Source: Umezawaea endophytica
Lineage (GTDB): Bacteria > Actinomycetota > Actinomycetes > Mycobacteriales > Pseudonocardiaceae
Assembly: GCF_025061645.1 (NCBI RefSeq)
Contig: NZ_JANYMP010000035.1
Span: 24,923-88,922, forward strand
Length of the DNA stretch: 64,000 nucleotides
Direction of reading: 5' to 3'
The notes under the pieces were generated by a model. That model was not told where the DNA came from. It made no database searches and saw only the letters and a list, made by a program, of their open reading frames with translations. A program made the position numbers and the translations under genes. This document shows positions 33,873 through 63,368 of this stretch, piece after piece. Positions within the stretch are counted from its first letter, which is position 1. Each line of letters opens with the position of its first letter.

Positions 33873-34715
33873 TCATCCGCGCAGCCGTTCCTCCACGTTC
33901 GCGATGACCGAGTGCATCGGGGCGGCGCCGTCGCTGGTCACCCAGCAGACCCGCACACCGGGCCGGACGCGGGTGTGGGCCATCCGCACGGCCCGGCCCG
34001 CCAGTTCGCGCACGCGTTCCGCGACCGCCTCGCCCGACCCGCACGGGTGCTCGGCGATGACGGCGAACTCGTCGCCCCCGTACCTGGCCACGGTGTAGTC
34101 CTCCCGCAGGCCTTCCCGCAGGCGGCCACCGATGGTGGTCAGCAGTTCGTCGCCCCGGTGGAAACCGTGCTCCGCGTTGACCCCGGCCAGGTGGTGCACG
34201 TCGACCAGCACGAGCGTCACCACCGTTCCGTGGGTGCGCGCCCTGGCCAGGGCCTGGTCGAGCCGGTCGTGCAGGAGAGCCCGACCGGGCAGGCCGGTCA
34301 ACGGGTCCACCAGCCCCCGGCTGTGCGGCACGTCCGTGTGCACCGGCTGGAGGAACGCCACCACCCGCGACTCGCCGCGCACCTCCAGCGGATGGCACTC
34401 GGCCCAGAGTTGGACGTGCGGCAGCCCGGCCCGCACGACGGCGACCGGCAGCGTCAGCACGGACCCGGTCCGCAGCACCTGCGACGCGATCTCCCGCCGG
34501 TTCGGCAGCGGCGCCCCGGAGTCGTCCCGCACGGACCACCCCAGCGGGCGGTGGCCCGACACCAGTTCCTCGGAGCGCAACCCCAGCAGATCAGCGGCCA
34601 ACCGATTTCCCGCCAGCACGTCCCCGAGCGCGTCCATCAGCACGACGCCGACGGGCAACTCGGCGATCAAGTCGTCCCACACCGGGCGGGTGGGGGCTGT
34701 CTGCGCGGTACGCAT
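33873..34715 (-). CDS. PAS-GGDEF diguanylate cyclase-like protein (soluble)
   Basis: A 280-residue protein without membrane helices. Residues about 15-110 form a PAS-like domain (L-P-V-G-V-V-L-M-D-A-L-G-D-V-L-A-G-N-R). Residues about 125-278 are a GGDEF domain (V-D-P-L-T-G-L-P-G-R-A-L-L, then A-R-Y-G-G-D-E-F-A-V). The active-site loop is intact, but the metal/substrate helix reads D-V-H-H-L-A-G-V-N-A rather than the usual D-x-D-x-F-K-x-V-N-D and there is no R-x-x-D inhibitory site, so activity is uncertain and product inhibition unlikely. ATG 34715 is the first start giving the PAS domain. Confidence 0.82.
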   Translation of the reverse strand: MRTAQTAPTRPVWDDLIAELPVGVVLMDALGDVLAGNRLAADLLGLRSEELVSGHRPLGWSVRDDSGAPLPNRREIASQVLRTGSVLTLPVAVVRAGLPHVQLWAECHPLEVRGESRVVAFLQPVHTDVPHSRGLVDPLTGLPGRALLHDRLDQALARARTHGTVVTLVLVDVHHLAGVNAEHGFHRGDELLTTIGGRLREGLREDYTVARYGGDEFAVIAEHPCGSGEAVAERVRELAGRAVRMAHTRVRPGVRVCWVTSDGAAPMHSVIANVEERLRG

Positions 34716-34846
34716 GGGGCTCGTGCCTCCCGCTGGCTGCCATGGCCTGTTCGTGAAGAGCTTCCCCGCAGGTAGCAGCCATTTCAATAGGCCCAATGAC
34801 ACCCAGTTCGGTGATCTTTTGGTCCTGGACGCAGGGGTGTGAGGCG

Positions 34847-35737
34847 TTAGGTCAACCGGGTGAGCATGGAGTCGAAGGCCTGTTCGGTCACGATGGGTAT
34901 CTCGTAGGCGCGGGCTCGGCGGGCCTTGCTGGACAGGGTGAAGGGGTCGGCGGCGACGAGGACCCTTGTTGCTTTGGTGACGTAGCCCTGGATGACGCGT
35001 AGGCCTGCGGCTGATGCGCGGTCGATCCAGACGTCTCGTGGGGATGACATCTGGCCGGTGAAGACGACCGTGTCGCCTCGGGTCAGGGGGATTGTTGTGG
35101 TGGTGATCGGGGGGAGGGTGGCTGGTTGGCCTCGGCGGACGGGGAGGGCGGTGGGGGCTGCGGATGTCGGCCACGGGTCGTTGGTGGCCGAGTTGATCAG
35201 GTGTTGCCAGGGGGTGGGGTGGCCCGCTGTGCGGAGGTAGGTGGTGAAGAGGTGTGCTGCGGCTTGGGCGTCGTGCAGTGCCGAGTGGGCGTTGTGCGGT
35301 GGGATTCCGGCGGCGTCGCAGCAGGCCTGTAGGGATCGGCCGGTGCGGTGGGGGAGGTACTGGTCGGACAGGCGCATCGTGCACAGGCCGGTGGTGGGCC
35401 AGTCGATGCCGAGTCTGCCGAATTCCGCTGAGAGGAAGCGGGCGTCGAAGCTGAGGTTGTGGGCCACTAGTACGCGGTTGCGGAGTTGGGCGGCCAGGGC
35501 TCCGCTGATCTCGGCGAAGGTGGGGGCGTGCCAGATCTCGGCCGCGGTGATGTGGTGGATGTGTTGGGGGCCCAGGTCGCGGGCCGGGTTGATCAGCGTG
35601 CACCACTCGTTGGTGATGGTGCCGGTTTCGTCCAGGTGGACGACGGCTACTTCGACGATCCGATCTCGGCCGCGGGCTGCGAAGCCGGTCGTTTCGGTGT
35701 CCACGACCGCGTATCCAACACCCACCAGGTGATCCAC
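34847..35737 (-). CDS. DnaQ-like 3'-5' exonuclease with C-terminal BRCT domain
   Basis: A 296-residue protein. Residues about 8-165 are a DEDDh exonuclease: Exo I is V-V-D-T-E-T-T-G-F, Exo II is A-H-N-L-S-F-D-A-R-F, and Exo III is A-H-S-A-L-H-D-A-Q-A. Residues about 215-295 are a BRCT domain (D-T-V-V-F-T-G-Q-M, Y-V-T-K-A-T-R-V-L-V-A-A-D), a layout seen in actinobacterial epsilon-like nucleases and related to NAD-ligase BRCT ends. It starts GTG at 35737 with GGCGGA just upstream. Its codon use is less GC-skewed than its neighbours. It probably acts in DNA repair or RNA/DNA processing; it is downstream of dnaB on the same strand but separated by repeat-rich DNA. Confidence 0.85.
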   Translation of the reverse strand: MDHLVGVGYAVVDTETTGFAARGRDRIVEVAVVHLDETGTITNEWCTLINPARDLGPQHIHHITAAEIWHAPTFAEISGALAAQLRNRVLVAHNLSFDARFLSAEFGRLGIDWPTTGLCTMRLSDQYLPHRTGRSLQACCDAAGIPPHNAHSALHDAQAAAHLFTTYLRTAGHPTPWQHLINSATNDPWPTSAAPTALPVRRGQPATLPPITTTTIPLTRGDTVVFTGQMSSPRDVWIDRASAAGLRVIQGYVTKATRVLVAADPFTLSSKARRARAYEIPIVTEQAFDSMLTRLT

Positions 35738-35740
35738 TCC

Positions 35741-35776
35741 GCCGATGACGATGCCGATGACGATACCGATGACGAT
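35741..35776. repeat. Three tandem 12-bp repeats
   Basis: GCCGATGACGAT, GCCGATGACGAT and ACCGATGACGAT lie head to tail immediately upstream of the exonuclease start. On the coding strand this puts an ATCGTCATCGGC repeat into the presumed leader. Confidence 0.85.
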
Positions 35777-35858
35777 CTTCGGAATGTACTCGGATGATCT
35801 CGGTGGGGTGGGGGTGGGTTGGGGGGCCGGTTGGGTGCCGGGGGTGCGTTGGTGGGGT

Positions 35859-35973
35859 GGCCGATTTGACTTGGGGCCCCTAGATTTGCCCCTTGGTCGG
35901 ACGAAAACGGCGGGGAGGTGAAGCCGCCGTCCGACTCGAGTTTAAGGGGCAAATCCCCCAAGTAAAATCGGCC
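35859..35973. repeat. Long imperfect inverted repeat (115 bp)
   Basis: The left arm begins GGCCGATTTGACTTGGGG (35859) and the right arm ends CCCCCAAGTAAAATCGGCC (35955-35973). Inside them GATTTGCCCCTT (35883-35894) faces AAGGGGCAAATC (35944-35955), GTCGGAC (35896-35902) faces GTCCGAC (35929-35935), and CGGCGG faces CCGCCG around a GGAGGTGAAG-type loop. RNA from either strand would fold into a long hairpin. Confidence 0.75.
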
Positions 35974-36014
35974 ACGGTTGCGTAGGCGGCGTGGCGGATC
36001 GTAGGTGGTTGGTG

Positions 36015-36105
36015 GGTCCGGCTGCCGGATTCGTAAGTGGTCGCTGGTCCGGCTGCCGGTTTGGTGGTGGTCGCTGGGTGGCTGCCGGTTTGGTGAGTGG
36101 TCGCC
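36015..36105. repeat. Three imperfect tandem copies of a 30-31-bp unit
   Basis: The unit is approximately GGTCCGGCTGCCGG followed by TTTGGTGGTGGTCGCT, starting near 36015, 36046 and 36077 and ending close to the dnaB stop. Copies differ at several positions, so they are old. No spacer structure or dyad is present, so it is not a CRISPR. Confidence 0.7.
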
Positions 36106-36109
36106 GGTT

Positions 36110-38179
36110 CTACGTGTGTGCTAGGTCGGTGAAGCGGCTGTAGTGGAGTTGGTGGGCCACCACGATTGTTGCTGTGGGGCCTGCGCGGTGTTTGGCGATG
36201 ATGAGGTCTGCTTCGCCTGCTCGTGGGTCGTCTCGTTCCCAGGCGTCTGGGCGGTTGATCATGATGACCATGTCCGCGTCCTGTTCCAGGGAGCCTGATT
36301 CGCGGAGGTCCGAGAGCATTGGCTTCTTGTCGGTTCGTTGTTCCGGGCCGCGGTTGAGCTGGCTGATGGCGATTACCGGTACCTCCAGCTCCTTGGCGAT
36401 GAGCTTGAGGTTTCGGGAGAACTCGGAGACTTCCTGCTGGCGTGATTCGGTGCGTTTGCCGGATGACATGAGCTGGAGGTAGTCGACCACCACTAGCTTG
36501 AGGTCGTGGCGTTGTTTTAGGCGCCTTGCCTTGGCTCGGATTTCCATCATGGTGAGGTTTGGTGAGTCGTCCACGAAGATGGGGGCTTCGCTGATCTCGC
36601 TCATGCGCCTGGCCAGGCGGGTCCAGTCGTCGTCGCTCATGCGGCCACCGCGCATGTCGCCCAGGCGGATCTTGGCTTCTGCGGAGAGCATGCGCATGAC
36701 GATTTCGGTGCGGCTCATTTCCAGCGAGAAGATGGCGCTGGTCAGGCCGTGCTTGATGGAGCACGACCTGGCGAAGTCCAAGCCCAGGGTGGAGTTGTGC
36801 GTGGGGATCATGGTTGGGCCGGCCAGGTACATGTGGTCGTGGTTGTCGACCTCCACGCAGCGCACGGGGATGCTCGTCGTTTGGCGGATGGTGGTGATGT
36901 CGACGCGGTCGCCGCCCATGGTTCGCAGCAGTTCGGCGATGTCCCTTGCCAGGCGGACGAATCGTGTTCCCGAGTGGCCTTCTGCCAGTAGGGCGTTCAG
37001 CAGTTCCTGGCGCTGTGCGCGGCTCGCGCGCAGGTATTCGACGGGGATGTGCGGGTCGTCGGCGAGGCCGAGGTCCTTGGCGGTGTGGATCTCGTCGTCC
37101 GACAGTTCGTCCGACACGGGGCCCAGTTCGCCGACGCCCGCCAGGAACACGCCGAGTGCGCGAGGGGGCAGTGGCAGGGTGGCGGGGGGCAGGTGCCAGC
37201 CGGAGGACAGGCGGACTGAGTGTCGGGCGGTGCTGCGGTGGAGTTGTTCGGTGGTGCGGATCGCCCAGAAGCCGCCGGTGGCGCTGCGCGACTCGGTCAG
37301 CCACTGGTGCTGCGCGTCGGCGGTGATCACGGTGCCGTCGCTGAACTCCACGTCGAAGCACGGGCGGTCGGTCATGACCTCGGTGGCGGCGACGACCCTG
37401 GTGGGCCTGCCGTCGGCGCCCAGCAGGCGGTCGCCGACGCGCACGTCGCCCATGGTCGTCCAGCCGGTCGGCGTGGGCAGCGGGGTGTCGAGCGCCAGCG
37501 CCTTGCCGACACCGGGGCGGGCCGCGACGATGATCATCTGGCCGGGGTGCAGGCCGTTGGTCAGCTCGTCGAGGTCGGCGAAGCCGGTCGGGATGCCGCT
37601 GGAGTTGCCGCCGCGGGAGGCGATGGCGTCGATCTCGTCCATGGTCGGCTGGAGCAGGTCTTCGAGTGCGACGTAGTCCTCGGTCGTGCGGCGGTCGGTC
37701 ACCTCGTAGATGGCGGCCTGGGCGCGGTCGACGACCTCGTCCACGTCGGCGCCCTCGGCACCGTTGTAACCGAGCTGCACGATGCGCGTGCCCGCCTCGA
37801 CGAGCCTGCGGAGGACGGCCTTCTCGGCCACGATCTCCGCGTAGTACCCGGCGTTGGCCGCCGTCGGCACGGTCGCGATCAGCGTGTGCAGGTACGGGGC
37901 GCCGCCGACGCGCAGCAGCTCGCCCCGGCGCTCCAGCTCCGCGGACACGGTGATCGGGTCGGCGGGCTCGCCGCGGCCGTACAGGTCGAGGATGCAGTCG
38001 TACACGGCCTGGTGCGCGGGACGGTAGAAGTCCGTCGGCGCGAGCGCTTCGATGACGTCGGCGATGGCGTCCTTGCTCAGCAGCATGCCGCCCAGGACCG
38101 ACTGCTCCGCGGCCAGGTCCTGTGGGGGCTGCCGTTCGAAGCTGGGTTCGGCCATCCCTCGGTCGTCCACCAGCGCCAC
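36110..38179 (-). CDS. dnaB: Replicative DNA helicase DnaB with an intein
   Basis: A 689-residue precursor; removal of the 236-residue intein gives a 453-residue helicase. The N-terminal DnaB domain starts R-Q-P-P-Q-D-L-A-A-E-Q-S-V-L-G-G-M-L. The P-loop of the RecA-like domain, A-R-P-G-V-G-K/S-T, is split by the intein between Lys and Ser. After it come L-D-F-A-R-S-C-S, Walker B L-V-V-V-D-Y-L-Q-L-M, and S-G-S-L-E-Q-D-A-D near the end. GTG 38179 is preferred: GGAGGTGAGGG precedes it and the start V-A-L-V-D-D resembles the M. tuberculosis start; an ATG at 38212 lies upstream of that ribosome site. It is the hexameric motor of the replication fork. Confidence 0.96.
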   Translation of the reverse strand: MALVDDRGMAEPSFERQPPQDLAAEQSVLGGMLLSKDAIADVIEALAPTDFYRPAHQAVYDCILDLYGRGEPADPITVSAELERRGELLRVGGAPYLHTLIATVPTAANAGYYAEIVAEKAVLRRLVEAGTRIVQLGYNGAEGADVDEVVDRAQAAIYEVTDRRTTEDYVALEDLLQPTMDEIDAIASRGGNSSGIPTGFADLDELTNGLHPGQMIIVAARPGVGKALALDTPLPTPTGWTTMGDVRVGDRLLGADGRPTRVVAATEVMTDRPCFDVEFSDGTVITADAQHQWLTESRSATGGFWAIRTTEQLHRSTARHSVRLSSGWHLPPATLPLPPRALGVFLAGVGELGPVSDELSDDEIHTAKDLGLADDPHIPVEYLRASRAQRQELLNALLAEGHSGTRFVRLARDIAELLRTMGGDRVDITTIRQTTSIPVRCVEVDNHDHMYLAGPTMIPTHNSTLGLDFARSCSIKHGLTSAIFSLEMSRTEIVMRMLSAEAKIRLGDMRGGRMSDDDWTRLARRMSEISEAPIFVDDSPNLTMMEIRAKARRLKQRHDLKLVVVDYLQLMSSGKRTESRQQEVSEFSRNLKLIAKELEVPVIAISQLNRGPEQRTDKKPMLSDLRESGSLEQDADMVIMINRPDAWERDDPRAGEADLIIAKHRAGPTATIVVAHQLHYSRFTDLAHT
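36794..37501 (-). other. Class 3 mini-intein in the DnaB P-loop
   Basis: Residues 227-462 of the precursor (236 aa). It begins with Ala (A-L-A-L-D-T-P-L-P) rather than Cys/Ser, and ends P-T-H-N before Ser+1. The class 3 W-C-T triplet is visible: Trp in block B (T-A-D-A-Q-H-Q-W-L-T), Cys in block F (P-V-R-C-V-E-V-D-N) and Thr in P-T-H-N. Class 3 inteins start splicing from the block F Cys. Between them are remnants of a LAGLIDADG homing endonuclease (L-G-V-F-L-A-G-V-G-E-L, P-V-E-Y-L-R-A-S-R-A-Q-R and L-L-N-A-L-L-A-E-G-H) with acidic residues lost and much of the domain deleted. Splicing is probably intact and homing lost. Confidence 0.9.
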
Positions 38180-60912: not shown

Positions 60913-61599
60913 ATGTCTCCTGTCGCTTTGATCACCGGCGCCTCGCGCGGCATCGGCGCGGCCATCGCCCGTTCGCTGTCGGACACCCACGAACTGCTCC
61001 TCGGCGGGCGTGACCCCGACGCGCTCAAGGCCCTGGCCGCCACCCTCCCCAACGCCCGCCCGTGGCAGGTCGACATCACCGACCACGCCGCGCTGGCCGA
61101 GGCCGTCACGTCGATCGACCGCCTCGACGTGCTGGTGCACAGCGCGGGCGTGACCCACCTGGGCCACGTCGCCGACTCGCCGCCGGACCTGTGGCAGCGC
61201 ACGTTCGACCTCAACGTCTTCGCGGTGGCCGAGCTGACCAGGCTGCTGCTCCCGGCGCTGCGCGCCACCAGCGGCCAGGTGGTCCTGATCAACTCCGGCG
61301 CGGGCCTGCGCGCCCACCCGAACTGGGGCGCCTACGCGGCCAGCAAGTACGCCCTCCGCGCGTTCGGCGACTCCCTGCGGGCCGAGGAGGAGCGCGAGCA
61401 CGGCATCCGCGTCACGTCCGTCCACCCCGGCCGCGTCGACACGGACATGCAGCGCGACGTCCGCACCCAGGAGGGCGGCGAGTACGAGCCGCAGTTCTAC
61501 CTGGAGGCCGACTCCGTCGGTCGCGCGGTCGCCGCCGCCGTCCACGCGAGCCCCGACGCGCACCTGACCGAGATCGTCGTCCGGCCGCGGGCGCACTGA
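60913..61599 (+). CDS. SDR-family oxidoreductase (short)
   Basis: A 228-residue classical short-chain dehydrogenase. Cofactor motif I-T-G-A-S-R-G-I-G-A, then V-L-V-H-S-A-G-V-T-H (NSAG-type strand), Ser in V-V-L-I-N-S-G-A-G, and Tyr/Lys in G-A-Y-A-A-S-K-Y-A. D-I-T after the third strand binds adenine. Starts ATG at 60913, 23 bases from the MFS start on the other strand, so the promoters overlap. Followed by a strong inverted repeat that terminates it. Substrate unknown. Confidence 0.88.
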   Translation: MSPVALITGASRGIGAAIARSLSDTHELLLGGRDPDALKALAATLPNARPWQVDITDHAALAEAVTSIDRLDVLVHSAGVTHLGHVADSPPDLWQRTFDLNVFAVAELTRLLLPALRATSGQVVLINSGAGLRAHPNWGAYAASKYALRAFGDSLRAEEEREHGIRVTSVHPGRVDTDMQRDVRTQEGGEYEPQFYLEADSVGRAVAAAVHASPDAHLTEIVVRPRAH

Positions 61600-61608
61600 C
61601 GCTCAACT

Positions 61609-61649
61609 CGGCGGCTTGTCGACACCGGTCGCACGTCGACAAGCCGCCG
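61609..61649. terminator. Bidirectional terminator between the SDR and the small-gene cassette
   Basis: CGGCGGCTTGTCGAC (61609-61623) and GTCGACAAGCCGCCG (61635-61649) form a 15-bp perfect stem with an 11-base loop, 10 bases after the SDR stop. It also separates the cassette at 61696-63125 from it. Confidence 0.88.
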
Positions 61650-61695
61650 TAGTGAGATGACATTCGTGCGGATAGCGGTCGTTGGACCGGATTCT

Positions 61696-62136
61696 CTACT
61701 GTGGTGGACGTGGGTTCTTGGGAGGGAAATACCTGCGCAGTGCTCCCAGAAGGCTCGACACGACAGATGTGTTCTGCCCACTTCGGCTCGGGAACTCCGT
61801 AGTTGGGGATAGTGCTGGTTCAGCTTGTTCAGATTCACCTAGTGGCGTTGTTTTCGACGAGAAAACGGCTGACCTCGCGGAGATCTCCCCGATGAGCCGG
61901 TCGATCTCGTGCTGGTAGTCGGCCAAGAGAGATTTGCGCAGCTCATCGCGCACGCGTGGATCAAAAGTATCGTATTCGGCCAGGACTGCGGCCTTGTACC
62001 GCTCGGCCGAAGTGCTGAACAAGTCGGCATCCGACCGATCCATAATTCCAGAACTCACCATGGCCAAAATTCGGTGGCCTGCCGGCTCCTCGATCTGCGT
62101 TCGGATCAGCGCCTCTAGTTCTGTCCGGTCGCTCAT
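61696..62136 (-). CDS. Hypothetical protein of the small-gene cassette (gene 4)
   Basis: A 146-residue soluble protein, not recognised. Residues 1-80 look helical (S-D-R-T-E-L-E-A-L-I-R-T-Q-I-E-E, then D-E-L-R-K-S-L-L-A-D-Y-Q-H-E-I-D-R). The last 55 residues are Ser/Pro/Thr-rich and disordered, ending L-R-R-Y-F-P-P-K-N-P-R-P-P-Q. ATG overlaps the stop of the preceding gene (ATGA). Base composition is clearly more A/T-rich than the flanking genes, suggesting acquisition. Last gene of the cassette. Confidence 0.6.
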   Translation of the reverse strand: MSDRTELEALIRTQIEEPAGHRILAMVSSGIMDRSDADLFSTSAERYKAAVLAEYDTFDPRVRDELRKSLLADYQHEIDRLIGEISARSAVFSSKTTPLGESEQAEPALSPTTEFPSRSGQNTSVVSSLLGALRRYFPPKNPRPPQ

Positions 62137-62318
62137 TCTCGCTCCAGCCTGTCTTGCTCAACCTCGGCCTCGGCAAGGATCTCCGAAATCTTCATGTCAA
62201 CTCTGGCCTCTTGGTGAATCAGCGCGGCCTTGCGCTCCAAGCTGGTGGCAAGCTCGGCCAGTTTTGCCGGCTTGCTCATGCGATCGCTGGTCGAATTGCG
62301 TTTGGCTATCTCCCCCAT
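62133..62318 (-). CDS. Small coiled-coil hypothetical protein (gene 3)
   Basis: A 61-residue, highly charged, alpha-helical protein (M-G-E-I-A-K-R-N-S-T-S-D-R at the start, E-I-L-A-E-A-E-V-E-Q-D-R-L-E-R-E at the end), predicted as a coiled coil with heptad-like Leu/Ile spacing. AGGAG eight bases before ATG 62318 and 4-nt overlap with gene 4 support its expression. Not recognised. Confidence 0.55.
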   Translation of the reverse strand: MGEIAKRNSTSDRMSKPAKLAELATSLERKAALIHQEARVDMKISEILAEAEVEQDRLERE

Positions 62319-62341
62319 GATGGGACTCCTGTTCCAGGCGG

Positions 62342-62728
62342 TTATTGATCCCGCAATCTGTGCATTTCGCGCACGAGATCGACGAGCAGGTTCTCCTCCA
62401 GCAGCTTCCTGACCTCTGGGTGCCAGGTCTGGTCGGCCTGTACGTGCTGTAGGTAGTCGTTGAACCGCTTCGCGGTGACAACGCTGAGTTCGCAGCGCTT
62501 GATCACCCTCGCGTCCTGCATCTGCACCTCGATCTGGACCCTGAGGTGGTTCACGGTCATGACCACTCCGCGCACCACGGCCGCCACCGGATAGTGCAGT
62601 GCTTGCATCACTGCTTCCACCACGAGCACGCCGACCTCGCGGCCGGAGGTGAACCCGCCACCCTGGTTCCGCAGGGTGAACGGCACTCGCGGAGTAGAGG
62701 GTTCGATCGAATTATCCATGGAATTCAC
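62342..62728 (-). CDS. Hypothetical protein of the small-gene cassette (gene 2)
   Basis: A 128-residue soluble protein, not recognised. The middle reads G-R-E-V-G-V-L-V-V-E-A-V-M-Q-A-L-H, then H-L-R-V-Q-I-E-V-Q-M and a helical C-terminal third (R-F-N-D-Y-L-Q-H-V-Q-A-D-Q and L-L-E-E-N-L-L-V-D-L-V-R-E-M-H). A GTG at 62728 and ATG at 62719 are both possible; GAGG sits before the GTG. Lies 15 bases after the membrane-protein gene and 23 before gene 3. Confidence 0.6.
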   Translation of the reverse strand: MNSMDNSIEPSTPRVPFTLRNQGGGFTSGREVGVLVVEAVMQALHYPVAAVVRGVVMTVNHLRVQIEVQMQDARVIKRCELSVVTAKRFNDYLQHVQADQTWHPEVRKLLEENLLVDLVREMHRLRDQ

Positions 62729-62743
62729 ACCTCACTGATCCGG

Positions 62744-63037
62744 TCACATGTCCGAGACCACGACGCCGATCAATGCGAGCGCCACGGCACAGAACGCTGT
62801 CAGCAGTGTCTGCCAGAATCCTTGGAGCGCCCAACTGATCAGCAAGCCAAACCCGACATCGACGATGAACAACTCGAACTCGCTGTCCGCGTCACCGTGA
62901 CGCGCCTTACGCTGCCTACCGAGTAGAGCGCGCACCGGATATGACAAGATCTGGCGAACCGTTCGAAGAAACCCCTCCTCGCCCGACAGTGCCCGGAATG
63001 CGGTGATCAGCATCAATCGGAGGAGTGGAATGAGCAA
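62744..63037 (-). CDS. Small membrane protein of the cassette (gene 1), start uncertain
   Basis: At least 97 residues: a hydrophobic start (L-L-I-P-L-L-R-L-M-L-I-T-A-F), a basic loop (R-A-L-L-G-R-Q-R-K-A-R-H-G-D-A-D-S-E-F) and two C-terminal helices (F-G-L-L-I-S-W-A-L and L-L-T-A-F-C-A-V-A-L-A-L-I-G-V-V-V). TTG 63037 is the only normal start in frame, but the same frame stays open and strongly hydrophobic upstream to about 63115 (G-S-A-L-W-A-G-F-L-L-L-I-S-V-S-A-A-K-F). An ATG at 63125 with GAGG upstream would connect if one A near 63107 were removed, so a frameshift or non-canonical start is possible. Function unknown. Confidence 0.5.
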   Translation of the reverse strand: MLIPLLRLMLITAFRALSGEEGFLRTVRQILSYPVRALLGRQRKARHGDADSEFELFIVDVGFGLLISWALQGFWQTLLTAFCAVALALIGVVVSDM

Positions 63038-63330
63038 GAATTTTGCAGCGCTGACACTGATGAGTAGCAGAAAACCTGCCCAAAGCGCTGATCCCAGAAA
63101 ATCGAAAATTATCAGCCTCCCGCATCACGCCTCGATACCCGGACATCGGCGCGGCGGGAGTCGGCGTTACGCTCCGTGGGAATAGTCGGCGCCGATTCAC
63201 CCGGTTGAGCGGCGCGGTGCACCCCGATGCCGGCCCCTCGTTCTTTGACGCGGTAAGGGCCAGTCATTGAACGCGCAGAAGTCCGTCGGTTCAGACAGTG
63301 TCGACAGGGTGAGACCCGCGCGTGAGACAG

Positions 63331-63368
63331 GTCGGATGCCCTTCGACGCGCGTCGAAGGGCATCCGAC
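63331..63368. terminator. Perfect 38-bp palindrome, terminator of the amidohydrolase gene
   Basis: GTCGGATGCCCTTCGACGC is followed immediately by its reverse complement, with no loop other than the turn itself. It lies 29 bases beyond the amidohydrolase stop on the minus strand and can act in both directions. Confidence 0.88.

Follow-up and report, generated by a model that had tools for sequence, protein, structure and literature searches.

Four small genes on the minus strand of a 64,000-nucleotide stretch of Umezawaea endophytica DNA (the whole of which is referred to here as the window) were found to have homologues, with gene order conserved, in another genus of the same family (g16). 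Our reading, to which we give a probability of roughly 0.45, is that this cassette is an accessory operon for a small protein complex anchored in the membrane, of a kind not represented in the libraries searched. A lack of conserved linkage in other genomes had been named beforehand, in the initial annotation of this DNA, as a refuting outcome; linkage with the same gene order was found in g16. Since the four open reading frames are conserved as proteins, and in order, in another genus, the cassette is not a chance feature, and because the linkage is conserved the finding is sounder than sequence alone could show; the cassette is a good candidate, not yet a system. Judged by sequence comparison, the protein families and the four-gene unit have no counterpart in the family libraries searched; no new mechanism is claimed.

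Organization of the four-gene cassette

Open reading frames and their translations placed the four minus-strand genes in an interval bounded on the gene 4 side by an SDR gene (60913-61599, plus strand) and on the gene 1 side by an amidohydrolase gene (minus strand, from 63398 to the end of the window); these two flanking genes face each other around the cassette in convergent orientation. Gene 1 (62744-63109), defined by translation, hydropathy and its homologues, encodes a membrane protein of 121 aa (P0001). Genes 2 (62342-62719; P0002, 125 aa) and 3 (62133-62318; P0003, 61 aa) were delimited by translation and by homologues, which were present in L059, L060 and L061 for gene 2 and in L059-L062 for gene 3. 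Gene 4 (61696-62136) encodes a protein of 146 aa (P0004), as judged from its translation, a structure model and its homologues. The tight packing of four minus-strand genes that had been described earlier was confirmed: gaps of 24 bases between genes 1 and 2 and of 23 bases between genes 2 and 3 are followed by a 4-base overlap of genes 3 and 4 (ATGA). The second protein had been given as 128 aa, a length that is obtained only if translation starts at the GTG at 62728. The proposed end of the cassette at 63125 was not upheld, as the ATG at that position lies in another frame than the membrane protein.

The initial annotation had also placed the cassette between two perfect terminator hairpins. 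One of these is indeed perfect, a 19-bp palindrome at 63331-63368 immediately 3' of the amidohydrolase stop codon; it is possibly the terminator of that gene and would then set it apart from the cassette. The other, located at 61602-61656 between the end of the cassette and the convergent SDR gene, is imperfect (22-nt arms, 86% complementary) and may be a two-way terminator. Both were absent from the six terminator-like sites returned by the T-run scan.

The GC content of the cassette was 58.3%, compared to a window mean of 70.9% (sd 2.8; 1430-bp stretches taken at 50-bp steps). This value is about 4.6 sd under the mean and is the lowest of all 1430-bp stretches sampled in the window; the lowest value elsewhere was 62.7%, at 35551. 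Consistent with the A/T-richer codons reported earlier, the GC3 values of genes 1 to 4 were 0.669, 0.816, 0.721 and 0.623 (0.62-0.82 overall), compared to 0.958-0.977 in the four neighbouring genes checked. A second A/T-rich part of the window, at 34701-37430, contains 1430-bp stretches that go down to 62.7% GC.

The reading frame of gene 1 is preceded by a TGA at 63127-63125 and contains no ATG, GTG or TTG before 63037. In the L060 and L061 homologues, gene 1 has a GTG start six bases past a GAGGGG. A Shine-Dalgarno-like GGGAGG was read from the window sequence at 63116-63121 (minus strand), where it sits 6 nt 5' of an ATT at 63107-63109, with equal spacing in L060 and L061. Since the GTG of these homologues aligns with the ATT of the window and the spacing from the ribosome site is equal, gene 1 probably starts at ATT; otherwise, its start codon has probably been lost. 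An ATT start codon is known from the E. coli infC gene.

The cassette is conserved in a second genus

A search of 390 family genomes with protein 4 yielded, besides its own genome, four strong matches with E values from 5.8e-19 to 2.7e-24, all of them in g16; five weak matches (E 2.6e-4 to 0.008) were set aside. Homologues of all four genes, with the order kept, were present at three g16 loci (L059, L060 and L061). Identity to the window proteins at these loci was 45-48% for protein 1, 35-41% for protein 2 and 42-47% for protein 4; for protein 3 it was 37-48% across four loci (L059-L062). All four window reading frames aligned with their homologues over the cores, with no stop and no frameshift. 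Partial copies of the cassette are present in L062 and L074.

A profile of protein 1 showed that the locus was carried by five of the 80 g16 genomes, that is, the four known carriers and G827. It is intact in three of the five (G823, G824 and G841). In G784 the locus is disrupted by deletions and a stop, and a segment around the end of the regulator gene is inverted; in G827 gene 3 lacks its end and gene 4 is mostly gone. With two of five carriers decaying, the unit is evidently dispensable. The flanking DNA on both sides is common to all five loci, and thus the unit has been inherited at one place in g16. In L060 the cassette has as neighbours a GAF-LuxR regulator gene, a TetR regulator gene accompanied by an ABC exporter, and the gene for a 2-oxoacid dehydrogenase E2 protein. 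Values of dN/dS between L060 and L061 were 0.056, 0.33, 0.28 and 0.37 for genes 1 to 4, respectively; in the comparison of G824 with G841 all four genes show purifying selection, which is strongest on gene 1. The protein 1 profile also gave two weak matches in the 80 g16 genomes (the best, at E 5e-5, lying in a frame of more than 600 residues) and three in 296 genomes of the class; all five were dropped after inspection.

A relative of gene 2 was detected in genus g45 (genome G724, L095 8595-8936; P0007, 35% identity) with the protein 2 profile in 249 family genomes, a sample in which that search did not show the g16 carriers. P0007 includes the C-terminal module that is common to proteins 2 and 4 (described below). 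Genes 1, 3 and 4 were not found in the 18 kb around it, and therefore gene 2 can exist without the others. P0007 was assigned to no family (Pfam E 0.22, NCBIfam E 0.027); it adjoins reading frames that were named by eye as acyltransferase-like and epimerase-like. A match of the same profile in G1009 (E 0.004, one of the 249 genomes) was at chance level.

Searches with single proteins gave the following results. Protein 2 matched only its own genome among 100 relatives, and its 13 further matches in 396 genomes of the phylum (E 0.03-0.1) were taken as noise, as were three further matches of protein 1 among 100 relatives (E 0.015-0.06). Four weak matches of protein 4 in 298 genomes of the order (E 0.001-0.003) had alignments that looked like chance. 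Contig scans with proteins 2 and 4, which need exact 8-residue words, returned no relative; since these scans missed relatives that the other genome searches found, the contig negative is a weak one. Absences in the genome searches hold among the limited set of first-look candidates scored per genome (for example, 26 for the regulator and 10 for protein 4).

A GAF-LuxR regulator accompanies the cassette in g16

In g16 the cassette follows a gene for a protein with GAF and LuxR-type domains, as identified with Pfam. This regulator had matches at E <= 1e-40 in 14 of the 80 g16 genomes. The five best matches (63-100% identity, query included) are in the five cassette carriers, with a truncated copy in G784; the other nine had 34-37% identity and no cassette within 1.5 kb on each side. 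No match to the regulator was obtained in the window genome at E <= 1e-10. Given its presence in all five g16 carriers and the result for the window genome, the link between regulator and cassette is strong in one genus and absent here.

Between the end of the GAF-LuxR gene and gene 1, CATCCTCG / CGAGGATG-like repeats were seen by eye (L074 8090-8150, L059 7605-7670 and L062 6980-7030), and these are possibly a regulator site or a terminator. Between the regulator end and gene 1, L062 carries an inversion of about 114 bp relative to L074.

Properties of the encoded proteins

Hydropathy analysis of protein 1 revealed two hydrophobic stretches of approximately 40 residues each (about 1-43 and 80-121), separated by a conserved basic loop, RQRKARxGDxDS. 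By the positive-inside rule basic loops face the cytoplasm, and on this basis protein 1 is predicted to lie in the membrane with two or four crossings and its basic loop in the cytoplasm. The model of protein 2 (a helix, three strands and two helices) was of low confidence (pLDDT 58.7), and its fold was therefore kept out of the evidence. Protein 3 is a charged, probably helical protein of 61 aa. Protein 4 was modelled as a three-helix bundle (residues 2-93) with a disordered tail, with a block pLDDT of 78-94 across residues 1-90; two of the five models reached pLDDT 70 (mean about 71) and the other three were near 43.

Profile comparison showed that proteins 2 and 4 have a homologous module, encoded on the minus strand at 62348-62524 (the C-terminal part of gene 2) and at 61888-62064 (gene 4). 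The alignment covered 57 columns with an E value of 1.3e-6 and a probability of 90.6, for profiles built from four sequences each. Its score of 41.4 compares to at most 18.3 in 200 column shuffles, 12.2 for the reversed control, and no more than 16.2 for the five remaining pairings of the four alignments. In addition, the protein 2 and protein 4 profiles detected each other in the three intact loci (E 7e-5 to 6e-4).

The cassette was likely gained by the window strain

Two congeners, G001 and G002, keep the same flanking genes as the window. These genes are separated by about 350 bp in G002 and by about 1.5 kb in G001, where the spacer holds an IS4/5-type transposase remnant. By eye, this remnant (DUF4096; L043 2973-3960) lies between two similar stretches of approximately 150 bp. 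A 24-base sequence is identical in both spacers (L043 4019-4042 in G001, L044 3261-3284 in G002) and does not occur in the window even when three mismatches are allowed; the window spacer thus differs from one that is common to the congeners. Proteins 1, 2 and 4 had no match in G001 or G002 at the thresholds used. The cassette was likely gained by the window strain, since the state of the site in the congeners (a 350-bp spacer or a transposase remnant), together with the base composition, makes gain the simpler reading. The site data are also compatible with a cassette that was present ancestrally and was lost twice within the genus, a history that fits the composition less well.

Searches of family, structure, plasmid and virus collections

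The earlier statement that no family could be recognised was borne out in Pfam, NCBIfam, PHROGs and PADLOC. For the four window proteins the best matches were CUX1_N in Pfam (E 0.064), cytochrome b562 and a sigma factor in NCBIfam (E 0.13), and matches with E 0.13-0.35 in PHROGs, all of which were taken as chance. PADLOC 2.0.0 returned only GajB against protein 2 (E 0.015, 11.7 bits), likewise taken as chance, and no match to proteins 1, 3 and 4. Pfam gave no credible family for the homologues from L060 and L059 (best E 0.024), nor did NCBIfam for those from L060 (best E 0.023); the PHROGs and PADLOC scans covered the window proteins only, and the L059 homologues were scanned in Pfam only. Within that coverage, Pfam and NCBIfam revealed no recognised toxin or antitoxin family in the window proteins or the L060 and L059 homologues, and no recognisable effector or nucleotide-binding domain in the cassette proteins. 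Profile searches of PDB sequences with proteins 1, 2 and 4 gave no match at E < 0.33.

No relative was found in 72,556 plasmid records with six tblastn queries or in phage records with three, protein 3 being outside both query sets. In viral contigs no relative was confirmed, either by two scans with single proteins or by three with profiles, and two weak IMG/VR matches to protein 4 were dropped, having E values of 0.03 and 4 when inspected. Clear homology to a phage or housekeeping family had also been named in advance as a refuting condition; none was found in PHROGs, Pfam, NCBIfam or the phage records. The unit is not described in those parts of the literature on ATT starts, on orphan or anti-phage operons with Amycolatopsis, and on GAF-LuxR orphan genes that were available.

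Alternative explanations

The window copy might be a decaying, mostly silent acquisition in which the ATT is a mutated start and protein 1 is no longer made. The GTG that occupies this position in the L060 and L061 homologues points that way, as do the visible decay of two relatives and the lack of any regulator hit at E <= 1e-10 in the window genome. We consider this explanation unlikely, however, because all four window frames align over their cores without a stop or frameshift and the Shine-Dalgarno spacing has been kept. Anti-phage defence or abortive infection, in which the soluble partners sense infection and protein 1 opens or damages the membrane, would account for a sporadically occurring membrane protein plus soluble partners that are family orphans and were likely gained laterally. 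The resemblance to defence modules suggested in the initial annotation was nevertheless not supported: the single weak GajB match (E 0.015) is unconvincing, none of the ten open reading frames at 49.0-61.6 kb, on one flank only, matched a PADLOC defence model at E <= 0.001, the g16 location is fixed with no defence genes among the L060 neighbours scanned, and there is no recognisable effector or nucleotide-binding domain. A defence role has no direct support, and we regard it as quite unlikely. The likeness to toxin-antitoxin modules fared no better, given the Pfam and NCBIfam results.

Plasmid spread genes are small and overlapping and include one membrane protein, a layout that the cassette resembles, and this resemblance, together with its character as an A/T-rich insert, might suggest the remnant of an integrative or conjugative element or of a plasmid. 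Such an origin is very unlikely in view of the stable chromosomal locus in g16, the absence of any tRNA from the window and of any integrase from the five neighbouring window proteins scanned in Pfam, and the lack of a plasmid relative with six queries; the last result also leaves the proposed likeness to conjugation modules unsupported. Orphan small proteins and two weak IMG/VR matches to protein 4 are what a prophage fragment might offer, but those matches dissolved on inspection, no PHROG match was under E 0.13, no phage record was matched and the viral-contig scans confirmed nothing, so that this explanation is close to refuted.

Proposed role and comparison with known systems

For the accessory operon proposed here, gene order and the module shared by proteins 2 and 4 suggest that the products form a complex. 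Protein 1 would be embedded in the membrane, its basic loop facing the cytoplasm; proteins 2 and 4, with their related helical modules, would dock on each other or on that loop, and the helical protein 3 may act as a linker. In g16 the GAF-LuxR regulator would switch the unit on upon a small-molecule or redox-type signal, and its output would be to alter the membrane when the cell is stressed or attacked. The window strain would have received the unit without the regulator, with gene 1 apparently translated from a weak ATT start. We infer a signal-controlled role in stress or conflict. A bolder version, which we hold to be decidedly unlikely, is that of a new signal-controlled membrane system in which proteins 2 and 4, derived from a common module, gate or regulate protein 1, and which is switched on in one genus by its own GAF sensor and was carried to another that lacks this sensor; it might be a stress or anti-phage response not yet described. 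If the accessory-operon reading holds, the cassette is a compact four-gene system that has no counterpart in the four protein-family libraries searched, that is found in related actinobacteria and that in one genus comes with a sensor of its own. What is new here are the protein families and the unit, which offer a testable 1.4-kb object and three intact relatives to compare.

The closest counterpart is the g16 locus, in which a GAF-LuxR gene is joined to four genes (intact in G823, G824 and G841, decayed in G784 and G827). The window has the same genes in the same order, whereas GC3 is higher in the g16 copies, the flanking genes differ, and the adjacent regulator of g16 has no equivalent upstream of the window cassette. 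The lone gene 2 relative of g45 is alike in its 35% identity and shared module, and differs in that genes 1, 3 and 4 do not occur within 18 kb. Anti-phage systems in which soluble partners work with a small membrane effector form a general class; the cassette is like them in gene layout only, having no sequence family in common with them and no defence models in the ten open reading frames scanned beside it.
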